Assembly: GCA_017434085.1 (NCBI GenBank)
Contig: JAFRFY010000100.1
Coordinates: forward strand, 1-35,707
Origin: Clostridia bacterium
GTDB taxonomy: Bacteria > Bacillota > Clostridia > Christensenellales > Aristaeellaceae
Direction of reading: 5' to 3'
DNA: 35,707 bases
Numbering within the stretch: the stretch's first letter is position 1; each line of letters opens with the position of its first letter. Below, piece by piece: positions 21,971-27,806 of the stretch. The position numbers and the translations under genes are program-made. The notes beneath the pieces are model-generated. The model saw only the letters and a program-made list of their open reading frames with translations. It was not told where the DNA came from and did not search any database.

Positions 21971-22668
21971 GCCCATTCCTCCGTCCTACTCAGTGTGATG
22001 CAGACCTCCCGCGCCGTCAGTACGGCCAGAGCCCCCGACGCCGCCATCCACGCGCCCGACGGCAGCGCGGACAGCGACAGCCCGACGTCCTCCCCGCCCA
22101 GCGCCAGCGCGGAGATCAGCGCCGACGCCGCCATGGAGAGATGCCCGTGCCTCCGCCCCAGCGGCGTGCGCTCGATGTACAGTCCCGCCCAGGCGGCGGC
22201 GAGGAACGGCGCGCTGATTTCAGCCGTCGTGCGCGGCACCGGCAGCCCCGAACGCGCGGACAGCGCGGCGGCGGACAGCAGTATCACCCCCAGGTCGACG
22301 GCGCCGATCGCCAGCATCCGCGCGAACACCACGCTGCGCAGCGAAAACCGGGTAGCCCGCTCCAGCTCCGCCATACTGTAGTCGCGGGAACGGCGGGTCT
22401 CCAGCACCGCGATCCCCGCGGAAAAGGGCAGCAGCGCCCCCATGAGCCGCGCCGCGTTTCCCGGAAGCCGAAACGCCCCCAGCAGCGCCGGTATAAGCGC
22501 GGCCCCGGCGGCGACCCACACGCGCCCTCGGATGTACGCCGCCTGCGTCAATACCATCTCTATCATGCCGACCCCGGGCGGGCGCAGCTTTCGCAAAAAC
22601 GCCCGCTTGCGCGTCGGCTCGGGATATGAAAACGCGGCCCTGATCTGTGCCCGCAGCGCCCTGTTCAA
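21967..22668 (-). CDS. Membrane protein of the sigma-ABC module, possible anti-sigma factor
   Basis: A 233-residue protein with an N-terminal soluble segment of about 45 residues (including YPEPTRKRAFLRKLRPP) and about six hydrophobic helices. The start is TTG at 22668, overlapping the sigma factor stop (TTGA), with GGAGG nine bases upstream. Membrane proteins with a similar charged N-terminal segment lie between small sigma factors and ABC exporters in other clostridia. By position it could be an anti-sigma factor or a transporter partner. No named domain is visible and the function is inferred from context only. Confidence 0.65.
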   Translation of the reverse strand: MNRALRAQIRAAFSYPEPTRKRAFLRKLRPPGVGMIEMVLTQAAYIRGRVWVAAGAALIPALLGAFRLPGNAARLMGALLPFSAGIAVLETRRSRDYSMAELERATRFSLRSVVFARMLAIGAVDLGVILLSAAALSARSGLPVPRTTAEISAPFLAAAWAGLYIERTPLGRRHGHLSMAASALISALALGGEDVGLSLSALPSGAWMAASGALAVLTAREVCITLSRTEEWA

Positions 22669-23126
22669 CCCTCATCGCCTCCCCACAACCGTCTGAATGC
22701 CGCCCGTGCCCGCTTGAGCCGCCGGTATATCGCAAACCGCGAGCACCCGTACAGCGCCGAGAGGGTGCCGATGGATTCCCCGTTCACATACCGAAGCAGC
22801 AACAGCTCCCGGTCCGCCTCCGCCATCTCCCCGAGCGCCGCGCGGACGGCGATGCCGTCGAGCGCCGCCTCCGTCGCGTCCGCCCCCGCGGCGTTTAAGA
22901 CCCCCTGCAGCGGCGCCCGCCTTCCCCTCCGCGACACATCCGCGCACAGGTTCCTGGCGATGGCGTACATGTACCGTATCTCATAGCCGCCCCCGGCTTT
23001 CCCGCTGTTCAGATACCGAAGGAAGGTCTCCTGCGTCACGTCCTCGGCCAGATGGCTGTCCCGCAGCCTGAAGCAGGCGTACCGGTATATCCTGTCGTAG
23101 ATCTGCTCCAAATCCGTCGATCCCAA
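22665..23126 (-). CDS. ECF-like sigma-70 family RNA polymerase sigma factor
   Basis: Small sigma factor of 153 residues with only region 2 (DLEQIYDRIYRYACFRLRDSHLAEDVTQETFLRYL, then the -10 recognition helix IRYMYAIARNLCADVSRR) and region 4 (LLLLRYVNGESIGTLSALYGCSRFAIYRRLKRARAAFRRLW, a helix-turn-helix). I prefer the TTG at 23126, seven bases after GGAGG; the GTG at 23144 would lie upstream of that SD and adds glycine-rich residues. It heads the operon with the membrane protein, ATPase and permease. I could not identify its own promoter or an autoregulatory site. Confidence 0.88.
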   Translation of the reverse strand: MGSTDLEQIYDRIYRYACFRLRDSHLAEDVTQETFLRYLNSGKAGGGYEIRYMYAIARNLCADVSRRGRRAPLQGVLNAAGADATEAALDGIAVRAALGEMAEADRELLLLRYVNGESIGTLSALYGCSRFAIYRRLKRARAAFRRLWGGDEG

Positions 23127-23213
23127 GCGCCCGCCTCCCCTCACCCTGTATGACGTTTTTCCCCCGCAAAATGTGCGCCCATGTTTTCTTTAAGAGAAAT
23201 TTTCTATAACCTA

Positions 23214-23242
23214 TTGACATGGTAGGCTGAATGCGGTATAAT
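23214..23242 (+). promoter_or_regulatory. Consensus sigma-A promoter of the cysK leader
   Basis: -35 TTGACA (23214-23219), 17-base spacer, -10 TATAAT (23237-23242): a perfect match to consensus. Such strength fits a gene controlled after initiation, by attenuation. Confidence 0.95.
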
Positions 23243-23263
23243 GCAGAAAACGAGGAGAGGAGC

Positions 23264-23377
23264 ATGAACATGATTCGCTTGATCAACGGCAAAACCTGCA
23301 TGTGTACGTCCTGCGTGATGCGCGGGCGCTGTTGTCGCGCGCGTCATACCGGGAATCTCCCGTCACCGCAGGCGTAG
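23264..23377 (+). CDS. Cysteine-rich leader peptide of cysK
   Basis: A 37-codon ORF starting at ATG 23264, six bases after GAGGAG (a second ATG at 23270 has AGGAG at a good distance too). It encodes Cys at positions 12, 14, 17, 23 and 24, including a tandem Cys-Cys (TGT TGT at 23330-23335), and ends with TAG 23375-23377. It lies between a consensus promoter and cysK, and its 3' part overlaps one arm of a predicted antiterminator. I infer a leader peptide whose translation senses charged tRNA-Cys. Cys-rich leader ORFs ahead of cysteine or sulfur genes are known in mycobacteria, but I know of no described clostridial cysK attenuator of this layout. Alternatives are a small metal-binding protein or a chance ORF. 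Confidence 0.75.
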   Translation: MNMIRLINGKTCMCTSCVMRGRCCRARHTGNLPSPQA

Positions 23378-23430
23378 GGCATTGTCTACGGCCGCGTCCT
23401 CGGGGATTCCCATTGGGGAATCCTCATTTT
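23350..23430 (+). promoter_or_regulatory. Predicted transcription attenuator of cysK
   Basis: Two mutually exclusive helices of ten base pairs each. Terminator: 23402-23411 pairs with 23416-23425 (core GGATTCCC / GGGAATCC, loop ATTG), followed by ATTTTATT. Antiterminator: GGGAATCTCC at 23351-23360 pairs with the same 5' arm, GGGGATTCCC at 23402-23411. Each helix contains one G-U pair. A small local hairpin (23350-23362) can also sequester the antiterminator arm. The arm lies 15 bases after the tandem Cys codons, so a ribosome stalled there would leave it free. Confidence 0.72.
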
Positions 23431-23458
23431 ATTGCCAATTAAAGAAAGGGGTATCATC

Positions 23459-24391
23459 ATGGCGAAGATTTTCAAAACTGCGGATCAGCTGATCGGAGGA
23501 ACGCCTCTCTTGGAGCTTGTGCATATCGAGGCGCAGGAGGGCTTAAAGGCTAGGGTACTGGCGAAGCTTGAGTATTTCAACCCGGCGGGCAGCGTGAAGG
23601 ACCGCATCGCAAAGGCGATGATCGACGATGCCGAGGCCCGCGGCGCGCTCAAGCCCGGCTCGGTGATCATCGAGCCCACCTCCGGCAACACCGGCATCGG
23701 CCTGGCGGCGGTGGCGGCAGCCCGGGGCTACCGGATCATCATCGTCATGCCGGAGACCATGTCCGTCGAGCGCCGGGTGCTGATGAAGGCCTACGGCGCG
23801 GAGCTGGTGCTCACCGAGGGCGCGAAGGGCATGAAGGGCGCCATCGCCAAGGCGGAGGAGCTGGCCAAAGAAATCGAAAACAGCTTCATCCCCGCCCAGT
23901 TCGACAACCCCGCCAACCCGAAGGCCCATTTTGACACCACCGGCCCCGAGATCTTCGAGGACACCGACGGCGAAGTGGACATCTTTGTGGCCGGCGTGGG
24001 CACCGGCGGCACCGTCACCGGCGTGGGCCAGTACCTCAAATCGAAGAAGCCCGGCGTCAAGGTGGTGGCCGTGGAGCCCGCCTCCTCGGCGGTGCTGTCC
24101 ACCGGCGTGGCCGGGGCGCACAAGATCCAGGGCATCGGCGCGGGCTTCGTGCCGAAGGTGCTGGACACCGGGGTGTATGACGAGATCATCCCCGTCGCCA
24201 ACGAGGACGCCTTCGCCACCGGCAAGCGCATCGGCCGCGCCGAGGGCGTGCTGGTGGGCATCTCCTCCGGCGCGGCGGTCTGGGCGGCCATCGAGCTGGC
24301 CAAGCGGCCCGAGAACGCCGGCAAGACCATCGTGGCGCTGCTGCCCGACACCGGCGACCGCTACCTGTCCACCCCGCTGTTCGCGGAATAA
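23459..24391 (+). CDS. cysK: Cysteine synthase (O-acetylserine sulfhydrylase) CysK
   Basis: PLP enzyme that makes L-cysteine from O-acetylserine and sulfide in the cytoplasm. The 310-residue protein has the PLP lysine K47 in [11 protein letters not shown], the substrate loop PTSGNTG (73-79), the phosphate-binding [10 protein letters not shown], and the C-terminal SSGAAVWAA and [18 protein letters not shown] 23459 has AAAGGGG eight bases upstream; an upstream in-frame ATG lies in the attenuator region and has no SD. It is the only structural gene behind the leader described above, and no cysE is adjacent. Confidence 0.97.
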
Positions 24392-24454: not shown

Positions 24455-26911
24455 TCAGTTCTTCCTGACCGCCAGCGCAGCCTTTTCGCCGTTGATGTTC
24501 CATTCCTTGGCGTAGGCGCCCTCGGGGGCGTCGCCCTCGCCGAAGGCGGTGGCCAGCACGGCGGCGGAGATGGCCTCGGCATTCCTCGCAAGCACCGGCG
24601 CGAGCGCGTCGGAGGCCCGGTAGCTGACGCTGATGCGGTCCACCACGTCGAAGCCCGCCTCCTTGCGCATGGTCTGCAGCTTGGAGATGACCTCGCGCAC
24701 GTAGCCCTTCTCGATCAGCTCGGGGGTCAGGTTGGTGTCGATGACCACGGTCATGTCGCCCTCGGTCTGGCTGACGAAGCCGGGCTTCTGGGCGGGAGAG
24801 ATCAGGCAGTCGTCCTTCTCCAGCGCGATCTCGGTGCCCTGGATGTCGAACTTCACCACGCCGTCTTTCTCGAGAGTATCCACAAAGGCGCTGCCGTCCA
24901 CGTTCTTGAGGTACTCGCCGATGGCGGGCACCAGCTTGCCGTAGCGCTTGCCCAGGGTCCTGAGCTGGGGCTTGATCTGATAGGTGGTGAAGGCGCGGGC
25001 GTCGTCGATGTACTCGACCTTCTCCACGTTCAGCTCGTCCCGGATCAGGTCAGCGCAGGCGTCGGACAGCTTCGCGCCCTTCACGTACAGCGTCGACAGG
25101 GCCTGGCGCACCTTGATGTTGGCGGTGGCGCGGCAGGCGCGGCCCAGCTGCACGGCGTCCATGACCTCCTCCATCTCGTCCTCGAGCTTTTTATTGATGA
25201 GGTTCTCGTCGGCCACCGGGTAGTCGCACAGGTGCACGGACTCCGGCGCGCCCTCGACGTTGCCCGCCACGAGGTTCTGATACATGCTCTCGGTCATGAA
25301 GGGGATGTAGGGCGCGGCCAGGCGGCACAGCGTGGTCAGCACGGTGTAGAGGGTCTGGTAGGCGGCCTTCTTGTCGGGGGTCCAGTCCTTGCCCCAGAAG
25401 CGGGACTTCGAGAGGCGCACGTACCAGTTGGACAGCTCCTCCACGAACGCCTGTATGGCGCGGGCGGTCTCGGTGATCCTGTACTGCTGCAGGCCCTCGT
25501 CCACGTATTTCACCAGCGTGTTCAGCTTGGACAACGCCCAGCGGTCCATCAGCGTAAAGTCGGCGGGTTCGGCGGCGTGCCCGGCGGGGCTGTAATCGTC
25601 GATGGCGGCGTACATCACGAAGAAGGCGTAGGTGTTCCACAGCGTGCCCATGAACTTGGACTGCATCTCGCTGACCAGCTCGTGGGAGAAGCGGGTGGGC
25701 AGCCACGGCGCGCCGTTGGCGTAGAAGTACCAGCGCACGGCGTCGGCGCCCTGCTTATCCAGCACGTCCCAGGGGTTGACCACGTTGCCCAGGTGCTTGG
25801 ACATCTTGCGGCCCTCGGCGTCCTGCACGTGGCCCATGACCACGCAGCTCTCAAAGGGGCTCTTGTCGAACAGCAGCGTGCCGATGGCCATCAACGTGTA
25901 GAACCAGCCGCGGGTCTGGTCGATGGCTTCGGAGATGAAGTTGGCCGGAAAGTTGGCCTCGAAGATCTCCCTGTTCTCGAAGGGATAGTGCCACTGGGCA
26001 CAGGGCATGGAGCCGGAATCGTACCCGCAGTCGATGACCTCCGGGGTGCGGCGCATCACGCCGCCGCAGTCGGGGCAGGTCATGGTCACGGCGTCGATGT
26101 AGGGCCGGTGCAGCTCGATGTCCTCCGGCACGGGCTTTCCGTCGATGCTTCCCAGTTCCCTGAGCTCCTGCCGGGAGCCGACCACGTGGATCTTGCCGCA
26201 CTTGCACACCCACACCGGCAGCGGAGTGCCCCAGTAGCGCTCACGGGACAGGCCCCAGTCGATCACGTTCTCCAGGAAGTTGCCGAAGCGGCCCTCCCGG
26301 ATGTTGTCGGGATACCAGTGCACGGTGTTGTTGTTTTTCAGGAGATTGTCCCGCAGCGCCGTCATGCGGATGAACCAGGTGGAGCGGGCGTAGTAGATCA
26401 GCGGGGTGTCGCAGCGCCAGCAGAAGGGGTAGTCGTGGGTGAAGTACGGCGCGGAGACCAGCTTGCCCTCCTTCTCCAGGTCCTCCAGGATCATCGGGTC
26501 GGCCTTTTTCACGAACACGCCGCTCCAGCGGGTGACCTCGGTCATCTCGCCCCTGGCGTTCACCAGCTGGAGGAAGGGGATGTGGTTCTCCCTGCCCACG
26601 CGGGCGTCGTCCTCGCCGAAGGCGGGGGCCTGGTGGACCACGCCGGTGCCGTCGGTCATGGTGACGTAGTCGTCGCACACCACGATCCAGGCGTTCTTCT
26701 CGTTGTCCACGCCCTTGATGGCCTCGTACTGGAAGTCGAACAGCGGCTCGTAGCGCAGGCCCTTCAACTCGATGCCGGGGAAGGTGATCTTATTTTGCAC
26801 CTGCACGCCCTCGCCCAGCACCTTCTCGATCAGCGCGTCGCCCATGATGATGGTGCGGCCGTCGTAGTCGAAGCGGGCGTAGGTCTCGGAGGGGTTCACG
26901 CACAGCGCCAC
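24455..26911 (-). CDS. ileS: Isoleucyl-tRNA synthetase, C-terminal part after an in-frame stop
   Basis: The downstream piece of ileS, in the same frame as the piece at 26954-27610. It carries the rest of the CP1 editing domain, the KMSK signature as GRKMSKHLGN, and the anticodon-binding domain with FVEELSNWYVRLSKSRFWGKDW and the long C-terminal region. The KMSKHLGN form and the total of about 1050 codons resemble IleS2-type enzymes. The first usable start is a GTG at 26911 with no SD, inside a conserved segment, so independent translation is unlikely. The reading frame is otherwise intact, with no second frameshift or stop, and with unchanged codon use, which suggests recent or artefactual disruption, or read-through. 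Confidence 0.9.
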   Translation of the reverse strand: MALCVNPSETYARFDYDGRTIIMGDALIEKVLGEGVQVQNKITFPGIELKGLRYEPLFDFQYEAIKGVDNEKNAWIVVCDDYVTMTDGTGVVHQAPAFGEDDARVGRENHIPFLQLVNARGEMTEVTRWSGVFVKKADPMILEDLEKEGKLVSAPYFTHDYPFCWRCDTPLIYYARSTWFIRMTALRDNLLKNNNTVHWYPDNIREGRFGNFLENVIDWGLSRERYWGTPLPVWVCKCGKIHVVGSRQELRELGSIDGKPVPEDIELHRPYIDAVTMTCPDCGGVMRRTPEVIDCGYDSGSMPCAQWHYPFENREIFEANFPANFISEAIDQTRGWFYTLMAIGTLLFDKSPFESCVVMGHVQDAEGRKMSKHLGNVVNPWDVLDKQGADAVRWYFYANGAPWLPTRFSHELVSEMQSKFMGTLWNTYAFFVMYAAIDDYSPAGHAAEPADFTLMDRWALSKLNTLVKYVDEGLQQYRITETARAIQAFVEELSNWYVRLSKSRFWGKDWTPDKKAAYQTLYTVLTTLCRLAAPYIPFMTESMYQNLVAGNVEGAPESVHLCDYPVADENLINKKLEDEMEEVMDAVQLGRACRATANIKVRQALSTLYVKGAKLSDACADLIRDELNVEKVEYIDDARAFTTYQIKPQLRTLGKRYGKLVPAIGEYLKNVDGSAFVDTLEKDGVVKFDIQGTEIALEKDDCLISPAQKPGFVSQTEGDMTVVIDTNLTPELIEKGYVREVISKLQTMRKEAGFDVVDRISVSYRASDALAPVLARNAEAISAAVLATAFGEGDAPEGAYAKEWNINGEKAALAVRKN

Positions 26912-26953
26912 GTTGCTGGGCAGGGTCCAGGGGGTGGTGGTCCAGGCATAGAT

Positions 26954-27610
26954 CTAAGTATTGTCCTGGTCCTTCACCTTGAAGCGCACCACGGCGGAGC
27001 GCTCCTTGACCTCCTTGTAGCCCTGGGACACCTCGTGGCTGGACAGCGCGGTGCCGCAGCGGGGGCAGTAGGGCACCACCTTGTGGCCCTTGTACAGAAG
27101 GCCCTTGTCGGCGATCCTTTTGAGGGACCACCATTCGGATTCGATGTAATCGTTGTCATAGGTGATGTAGGGGTTCTCCATGTCGGCCCAGTAGCCCACG
27201 CGCTCGGACATGCGCTCCCACTCGCCCTTGTACTTCCACACGGACTCCTTGCACTTTTTGATGAAGGGCTCGATGCCGTAGGCCTCGATCTGCTCCTTGC
27301 CGTCCAGGCCCAGCGCCTTTTCGACCTCCAGCTCCACCGGCAGGCCGTGGGTATCCCAGCCGGCCTTGCGGGTGACGGACTTGCCCTTCATGGTCCAGTA
27401 GCGCGGGAACAGGTCCTTGAGCGCCCGGGTCTCGATGTGGCCGATGTGGGGCTTGCCGTTGGCCGTCGGCGGGCCGTCAAAGAACGTCCACACGTCCGCG
27501 CCCGCGCGCTGATCCATGGACTTCTTGAAGATGTTGTTTTCGTTCCAGAATTTGATGACCTCCTGCTCGCGGGCCTGGAAGTCCAACGCCGTGGAAACCT
27601 TCTCAAACAT
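26954..27610 (-). CDS. ileS: Isoleucyl-tRNA synthetase, N-terminal part ending in in-frame TAG
   Basis: First 218 codons of ileS, which charges tRNA-Ile. It starts at ATG 27610 with GGAGG seven bases upstream and runs through [23 protein letters not shown] with the HIGH motif (55-58), [18 protein letters not shown] and the zinc-ribbon-like [13 protein letters not shown]. Codon 219 is TAG (26954-26956); the frame then continues directly as IYAWTTTPWTLPSN in the next piece. Relatives usually have Tyr there (NTY-I-x-A/x-WTTTPWTLPSN), so a TAC or TAT to TAG change explains it. The gene is preceded by a T-box. It could be a real nonsense mutation, a sequencing error or read-through; TAG ends several other genes here, so recoding is unlikely. 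Confidence 0.9.
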
Positions 27611-27624
27611 GTCCTTTCCTCCCA

Positions 27625-27665
27625 GAAAAAAATACGGGTCCTCATCCCCCGCTGGGACGAAGACC
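27625..27665 (-). terminator. T-box-controlled terminator of ileS
   Basis: On the minus strand, a 12-base fully paired stem (two G-U) between 27665-27654 (GGTCTTCGTCCC) and 27648-27637 (GGGATGAGGACC), loop of five, followed by seven T. It lies between the T-box sequence and the ileS SD. Confidence 0.9.
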
Positions 27666-27715
27666 TTCGCGGTACCACCCAAATTGACGCCGGTATCGGG
27701 CGCGCCCGGCGGGAT
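27637..27715 (-). promoter_or_regulatory. T-box leader of ileS with very short stem I
   Basis: The T-box sequence AATTTGGGTGGTACCGCG (minus strand, 27685-27668) matches the consensus that binds the CCA end of uncharged tRNA. It is followed by the terminator helix. Upstream only about 30 bases separate it from the predicted transcription start. They fold as CGCCGG-12-base loop-CCGGCG; the loop ends in GATA and so contains an AUA triplet. No canonical 100-base stem I with a specifier bulge is present. Uncharged tRNA-Ile should favour the antiterminator and ileS transcription. The T-box is certain; the stem I reading is tentative. Confidence 0.82.
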
Positions 27716-27724
27716 ATACTCTAT

Positions 27725-27752
27725 AATTATACCGCTTTTTCCTGATTTGTAA
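27725..27752 (-). promoter_or_regulatory. Promoter of the ileS T-box transcript
   Basis: On the minus strand: TTTACA, 16-base spacer, TATAAT, located immediately upstream of the T-box leader. This placement is what makes the leader so short. Confidence 0.7.
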
Positions 27753-27806
27753 ATGCCCCGCCCCACGATTCAACATCGAATTTACCATTGAGGGCGGGAA
27801 AATCCG

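Follow-up and report, generated by a model that had tools for sequence, protein, structure and literature searches.

The question raised by this locus is how a clostridial cysK gene is controlled when a small cysteine-rich reading frame and a set of complementary sequences lie between the gene and its promoter. A sequence-only reading of the window, by which we mean the whole stretch of 35,707 nucleotides that was analysed, had proposed that this leader senses cysteine by attenuation. We followed up this proposal by profile searches, folding calculations, a ribosome-position model and a comparison with cysK upstream regions of relatives.

Promoter, leader frame and competing helices

All features of the leader and of cysK lie on the plus strand. 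The gene itself (23459..24391, ATG at 23459) encodes cysteine synthase A, with matches over the cut-offs of NCBIfam TIGR01139 (453.9 bits, cut-off 350.95) and PF00291. Upstream of it, an ECF-type sigma factor frame (22665-23144) is divergent, and ileS downstream is convergent, so that cysK is probably transcribed alone, as a single-gene transcript, from its own sigma-70-type promoter TTGACA-17-TATAAT (23214..23242). This promoter matches the consensus in 12 of 12 positions, and a looser promoter scan found 3 sites in 1601 bases compared with 0.3 in shuffled sequences. It is followed by the Shine-Dalgarno sequence GAGGAGAGGAG (23252..23262) and a leader frame of 37 codons (23264..23377) for the peptide MNMIRLINGKTCMCTSCVMRGRCCRARHTGNLPSPQA, which contains cysteines at codons 12, 14, 17, 23 and 24 and has orthologues in two genomes of the same genus, G005 and G003. 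The tandem cysteine codons 23 and 24 (TGT TGT, 23330..23335), the proposed sensing site, are invariant in all three. The Shine-Dalgarno sequence of cysK, AAAGGGG (23445..23451), is predicted to be open, with pairing probabilities below 0.2 at eight of nine positions and of 0.42 at the remaining one. Promoter, leader frame with its ribosome-binding site and separately initiated cysK had all been described in the sequence-only reading and proved correct. The leader element occurs once in the window genome, the assembly of which is 76% complete.

The helices put forward in the same reading are also there. A terminator-like helix joins 23402-23411 with 23416-23425 in ten pairs and is followed by ATTTTATT, the U-rich tract AUUUUAUU occupying 23426..23433. 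The alternative ten-pair helix between 23351-23360 and 23402-23411 exists as well and can be improved to eleven pairs with one bulged U (23351-23357 plus 23359-23362 with 23401-23411). In the following, we refer to the antiterminator 5′ arm as R1 (23351..23362), to the shared arm, partner of either of the others, as R2 (23401..23411) and to the terminator 3′ arm as R3 (23416..23425). By itself the terminator is not convincing because chance alone should produce 1.5 such sites in 1601 bases, in which 2 were found. Folding calculations, which the earlier reading had proposed as a check, are more telling for the central region: the minimum free energy of 23348-23435 is -38.4 (z -3.23) and none of 200 shuffled sequences was as stable, while the full leader (23247-23461) shows a modest extra stability (z -1.97; 6 of 200 shuffles as stable) and adopts the terminator form at minimum energy. 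The R1:R2 duplex is stronger than in shuffled leaders (p 0.004). Folding and duplex test thus predict an antiterminator and an intrinsic terminator that exclude each other. The gap of 15 bases noted earlier between the end of the tandem cysteine codons and the arm is exact, and R1 begins 17-18 nt past the start of the last tandem cysteine codon.

Modelled ribosome position and the proposed choice between the helices

Taken together, we consider it very probable that the leader attenuates transcription of cysK in a ribosome-mediated manner that responds to cysteine. When charged Cys-tRNA is ample, the translating ribosome would pass codons 23 and 24 and run over R1 while the polymerase makes R2 and R3; R2 would then pair with R3 and transcription would end at the U tract. 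When Cys-tRNA is scarce, the ribosome would halt when codon 24 occupies the A site, its leading edge lying about 3 nt before R1, and the free R1 would take R2 as soon as it is made, so that the terminator would be blocked and cysK transcribed.

We modelled this choice by removing the RNA behind the leading edge of the ribosome and folding the remainder, for A-site codons from 4 on. We placed the leading edge 15 nt past the point where the A-site codon starts, which is an approximate figure. With R2 made and R3 still to come, R2 in the window is predicted to be fully paired upstream (mean 1.0) for ribosomes at codons 4 to 25, and this pairing falls over the next four codons to 0.63, 0.37, 0.16 and 0.01. 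Once R3 is included, codons 23 and 24 give terminator probabilities of 0.33 and 0.32; the value reaches its minimum of 0.02 at codon 25 and jumps to 0.99 at codon 26, which places a sharp switch point at the tandem cysteine codons, give or take one codon. Codons 23 and 24 are not the sole dip, since values of about 0.33 are also obtained at codons 12-15 and 22. Under the assumed 15-nt edge, a stall at the sensing codons is therefore predicted to leave the antiterminator arm free, with the helix intact up to codon 25 and lost thereafter.

The sequence-only reading had further held that a ribosome at the stop codon (23375-23377) would cover part of the arm. This holds marginally: the stop codon lies beyond R1, and with a standard ribosome footprint, coverage would extend to the inner stem and, within R1, to its 3′ end, whereas the rest of R1 would stay clear. 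The model is blind to RNA behind the ribosome; for a ribosome on the stop codon, with R1 outside the modelled RNA, the upstream pairing of R2 climbs again, to 0.39.

Applied to leaders of relatives, the model yields a graded picture. In G015 (locus L041), the terminator probability dips at a run of three cysteine codons (0.64, 0.20, 0.18, then 0.99), and in L059 the last codon of such a run brings it down to 0.59. No equilibrium switch at the tandem cysteine run was obtained for G005, G003, G023 and L062, where the terminator stays at 0.92 or above, and the model therefore requires co-transcriptional folding there. Before R3 is made, the pairing of R2 in these four forms a plateau that extends to the last tandem cysteine codon or one codon past it, and in L059 to two codons past the cysteine run; L217, L225 and L227 gave no comparably clean loss of R2 pairing with R3 absent. 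In the model, the equilibrium switch is thus clear for the window and G015 and weak or absent for G005, G003, G023 and L062.

A probable promoter operator, orthologues and competing explanations

The promoter carries a second probable control element. The inverted repeat CCTA-N9-TAGG (23210..23226), a probable Rrf2/CymR-type operator, overlaps the -35 element. Of the 173 cysK upstream regions left after dereplication, 44 contain it as an exact match, while spacings of 5-8 and 10-13 occur 0-3 times each. Genes of the Rrf2 family lie beside cysK in six relatives (L041, L043, L052, L086, L117 and L119), loci that were chosen for visible parts of such a gene. The CymR-type name is tentative, since the Rrf2 proteins of L041 and L086 score over the cut-off for the Rrf2 superfamily profile and under those for CymR and IscR. 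The cysK promoter is probably also under the control of an Rrf2/CymR-type repressor, and the contrast drawn earlier between the leader and CymR-type control has to be softened: with a probable operator overlapping the -35 element, repressor and attenuator may act together. In the window genome, with its completeness of 76%, a single match to the Rrf2 family was found (L253, G000:C76). It scores over the superfamily cut-off and is assigned to neither CymR, for which its 119.5 bits fall short of the cut-off of 195, nor IscR, and it directly precedes a frame that by eye resembles a cysteine desulfurase.

Could this repressor be the sole cysteine control and the leader a relic or noise? The frequency of the repeat, the neighbouring Rrf2 genes and three genomes of the same genus, G011 (L037), G006 (L039) and G001 (L051), would fit such a view: these three have an operator-like promoter and a short 5′ region immediately before cysK, with no leader, and offer a natural comparison with and without it. 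We nevertheless regard this explanation as improbable because the arms and the cysteine codons are conserved above their surroundings, which is unexpected for a relic. Among the three orthologues, 1 of 12 columns is variable in R1, 0 of 11 in R2, 1 of 10 in R3 and 0 of 8 in the U tract, compared with 19 of 38 in the linker, 10 of 30 in codons 2-11 and 2 of 48 in the cysteine block (23297-23344). The sole variable column of R1 is its last base, and if R1 is taken as 23350-23361 the count is 0 of 12. Altogether, 2 of 33 arm columns vary. The N-terminal codons, linker, loop and spacer together have 41 variable columns out of 90 (p 1.5e-5 in Fisher's test), or 43 of 138 when the well-conserved cysteine block joins the comparison (p 0.0015).

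Both orthologues retain the tandem cysteine codons and both helices, as had been expected of relatives, although G005 has lost cysteine codon 12 and covariation is absent: 10 of the 11 antiterminator pairs are invariant in the three sequences, one is broken in one genome and none covaries. With three sequences and nearly invariant arms, covariation is uninformative here. In G003, a change after the cysteine block ends the leader nine codons earlier, as RARC, and R1 is kept except for its last base. Since the arms barely vary while the linker does, and since G003 stops early, the comparison points to a function of the RNA, and not to conservation of the end of the peptide, as the constraint on the leader. 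The same data bear on the possibility that the frame encodes a small functional cysteine-rich peptide, metal-binding or modified, next to incidental hairpins. Its five cysteines in a CxC..C..CC layout and the cysteine block as the best conserved part of the frame (the 2 of 48 columns set against the 10 of 30 in codons 2-11) are what one would look for in such a peptide; yet the N-terminal codons vary, G003 has lost the C-terminal tail and keeps the RNA arm, dissimilar cysteine peptides occupy the same place in other relatives, and the window leader has no match in NCBIfam or Pfam, all of which makes this explanation very unlikely.

The orthologues are narrowly distributed. Beyond the window genome, G005 and G003, no match to the window leader at E <0.001 was found among 60 relatives, and among the matches listed for 297 genomes of the order it occurs in the window genome only, with G005 and G003 outside those listed.

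Cysteine leaders before cysK in relatives and their relation to known systems

We therefore turned from homology to layout and surveyed 200 cysK upstream regions (40 loci, 80 titled loci and 80 further stretches), which are the closest matches of each search and not a random sample; 197 were long enough, and dereplication reduced them to 172 or 173, according to the length limit applied. Small frames preceded by a Shine-Dalgarno sequence and containing three of one residue in six codons were counted. Cysteine clusters of this kind are present in 15 of 172 regions (z 27), whereas shuffles average 0.35 and none of 60 exceeds 2, with 0 of 172 on the antisense strand and 6 and 8 in 1301 flank windows. 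Two of the 15 (L160 and L169) look accidental by eye, leaving 13 of 172. Cysteine is the strongest outlier among the residues clustered in small frames before cysK, ahead of arginine (26 vs 7.9, z 6.8) and aspartate (3 vs 0.48, z 3.8), the rest having z values of at most 2.5. With looser criteria, 29 of 197 regions were positive, compared with 5 on the antisense strand and a shuffle mean of 3.35 (maximum 8 in 20 shuffles). To judge from their sequences, relatives in other genera carry dissimilar cysteine-rich leaders before cysK far above chance.

Sixteen loci with leader and terminator were examined for an antiterminator. Six of them have an R1:R2 duplex with p 0.002-0.014, and the start of R1 lies at a similar distance past the start of the last tandem cysteine codon in each: 17 nt in the window genome (G000) and G005, 18 nt in G003, G015 and G023, and 14 nt in L062. 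Three leader groups thus place R1 14-18 nt after the tandem cysteine codons, and the arms of L041/L043 and L062 differ in sequence and still pair. This common spacing, the orthologues and the excess of cysteine leaders before cysK speak for the attenuation originally proposed. The duplex fell short of p 0.02 in the other ten loci, nine of them (L059, L102, L110, L175, L184, L186, L217, L225 and L227) at 0.35 or above and L058 at 0.03, which becomes 0.33 with another R1 region. Two loci with weak hairpins (L148 and L098) were left out of this test; L148 gave p 0.12 separately. An automatic terminator finder run on 26 loci returned nothing for the window and its two orthologues, probably because it demands a T directly after the stem, and the hairpins of these three were supplied by hand.

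Within the genus, the device is patchy, as cysteine leaders, of three kinds, were found in 6 of the 21 genomes that offer 150 or more bases ahead of cysK (second copies in G008 and G012 are excluded, and L050 was too short to be counted). Searches of 200 genomes of the family with leaders of the L041 and L062 kinds gave weak matches only (best E 0.0123 and 0.0118, respectively), and in about 520 bases around the weak matches L233, L248 and L250 and around L010 no cysK leader was seen by eye. The leaders of L041, L186 and L059 have no match in NCBIfam. Four cysteine leaders with terminators (L102, L110, L184 and L186) finish alike, with final residues resembling FAIPI or AMPM. In L102, L184 and L186 a second small frame containing RC lies beside cysK, and in L186 it is open to the gene; this gives the impression of two forms stacked on each other.

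A second and shorter form is widespread in the sample. Very short Arg-Cys frames ending 20-120 nt before cysK are found in 46 of 173 regions compared with 4 on the antisense strand, and the hexamer CGATGT is frequent in them (38 loci with such a frame). Examples are MRYDLLCLRCRRC and VRNAKTFFRC; cysteine mini-leaders, mostly 57-119 nt upstream of cysK, were seen in L053, L073, L076, L078, L086, L093, L105, L134, L198, L204 and others. In the 33 of 38 loci analysed (L089, L173, L175, L215 and L223 were excluded by eye), the stretch around CGATGT is predicted to pair with the Shine-Dalgarno sequence of cysK. The mean probability is 0.48, whereas shuffles give 0.135 (p 2.5e-5 in a Wilcoxon test), and individual values lie at or above 0.7 in 15 loci and at or below 0.2 in 12. 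A duplex test on the same loci points the same way, its mean of -8.1 being lower than that of other windows (-5.1, p 2.5e-5) and of shuffles (-5.9, p 1.2e-4). In part of the loci, the mini-leaders look like translational attenuators that would hide the ribosome-binding site of cysK. The extended motif CGATGT[TC]G[AC]CG occurs in 14 of 197 cysK upstream regions, never on the reverse strand and 8 times in 837412 flank bases (both strands), a count that is no independent test as the motif was derived from the same loci. The letters after the cysteine codon are similar whether they read as a TGA stop or a CGC arginine codon, which suggests a constraint on the nucleic acid beyond the peptide.

The mini-leaders raise the possibility that the window leader, too, governs access to the cysK ribosome-binding site and not termination. 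A link between both forms is suggested by the G003 leader, which terminates in CGATGTTGACG just as the mini-leaders do, and the Shine-Dalgarno region of cysK is partly predicted to be paired (0.8-1.0) in L041, L043 and L062. In the window, however, this region is predicted to be open, and a terminator-like hairpin with a conserved U tract intervenes before cysK, so that translational attenuation is hardly to be expected there. A known riboswitch or T-box can be dismissed, since no Rfam family, T-box included, was found in the window at the gathering score; the same search of 15 related loci returned one FMN riboswitch only, in L110.

The transcription attenuation proposed for the window leader follows a classical logic, and several known systems resemble it in part. 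The uORFC-8-2 motif upstream of cysS in Rhodobacterales, for which ribosome-mediated attenuation has been proposed, combines a short upstream frame that contains tandem cysteine codons with two stems and, at the end, a run of U; its target is a cysteinyl-tRNA synthetase in alpha-proteobacteria, whereas here it is cysK, most titled relatives are Clostridia, and an operator-like repeat overlaps the promoter (PMC8632094). In mycobacteria, the cysteine codons of polycysteine small ORFs sense cysteine for downstream genes, but these ORFs are described in the cited texts as leaderless and acting translationally, in contrast to the leader with Shine-Dalgarno sequence and terminator-type hairpin found here (Canestrari 2020, via PMC13236596, PMC9031893). 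Runs of cysteine codons likewise occur in leader peptides before cys operons and cbs of Actinobacteria (PMC1262725; also PMC9031893), where, unlike in the window, no conserved hairpin terminators were found (PMC1262725). Clostridium perfringens cysK-cysE is preceded by a cysteine T-box, which controls the same gene by premature termination in response to cysteine supply via tRNA-Cys but reads the tRNA without leader translation, and a T-box was not found in the window; the same source states for C. acetobutylicum, C. tetani and C. novyi that cysK lacks a T-box and that other mechanisms may exist (PMC2940859). Finally, histidine leader peptides precede hisS*/hisZ in bacilli, a case of a leader peptide in place of a T-box in Firmicutes, although with other codons, in other organisms and on other genes than here; leader-peptide attenuation of amino acid genes was presented there as new for Firmicutes in 2010, T-boxes being usual in this group (PMC2965389). 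In the open-licence papers searched, we found no report of cysteine-codon leaders before clostridial cysK.

Whether cysteine-codon leaders on cysK generally serve Clostridia as an alternative to the cysteine T-box, in two related forms (terminator and Shine-Dalgarno-hiding mini-leader) that repeatedly arose or were remodelled beneath an Rrf2/CymR-type operator, so that cysK would answer both to a repressor and to the charging of Cys-tRNA, is in our judgement an evenly balanced matter. If this is true, the main cysteine-making gene would carry a cysteine-specific attenuator with dissimilar leaders across lineages and an apparently translational sister form, RNA sensors would be seen to be swapped with ease on one gene, and Cys-tRNA charging in anaerobes would become directly testable.

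A minor observation concerns the downstream neighbour of cysK. The ileS gene (24455-27766, minus strand) consists of two frames split by an in-frame TAG stop, which may be an assembly error, a real break or something else, and both parts have their best scores, far under the cut-off, on models for MupA/MupB-type ileS.
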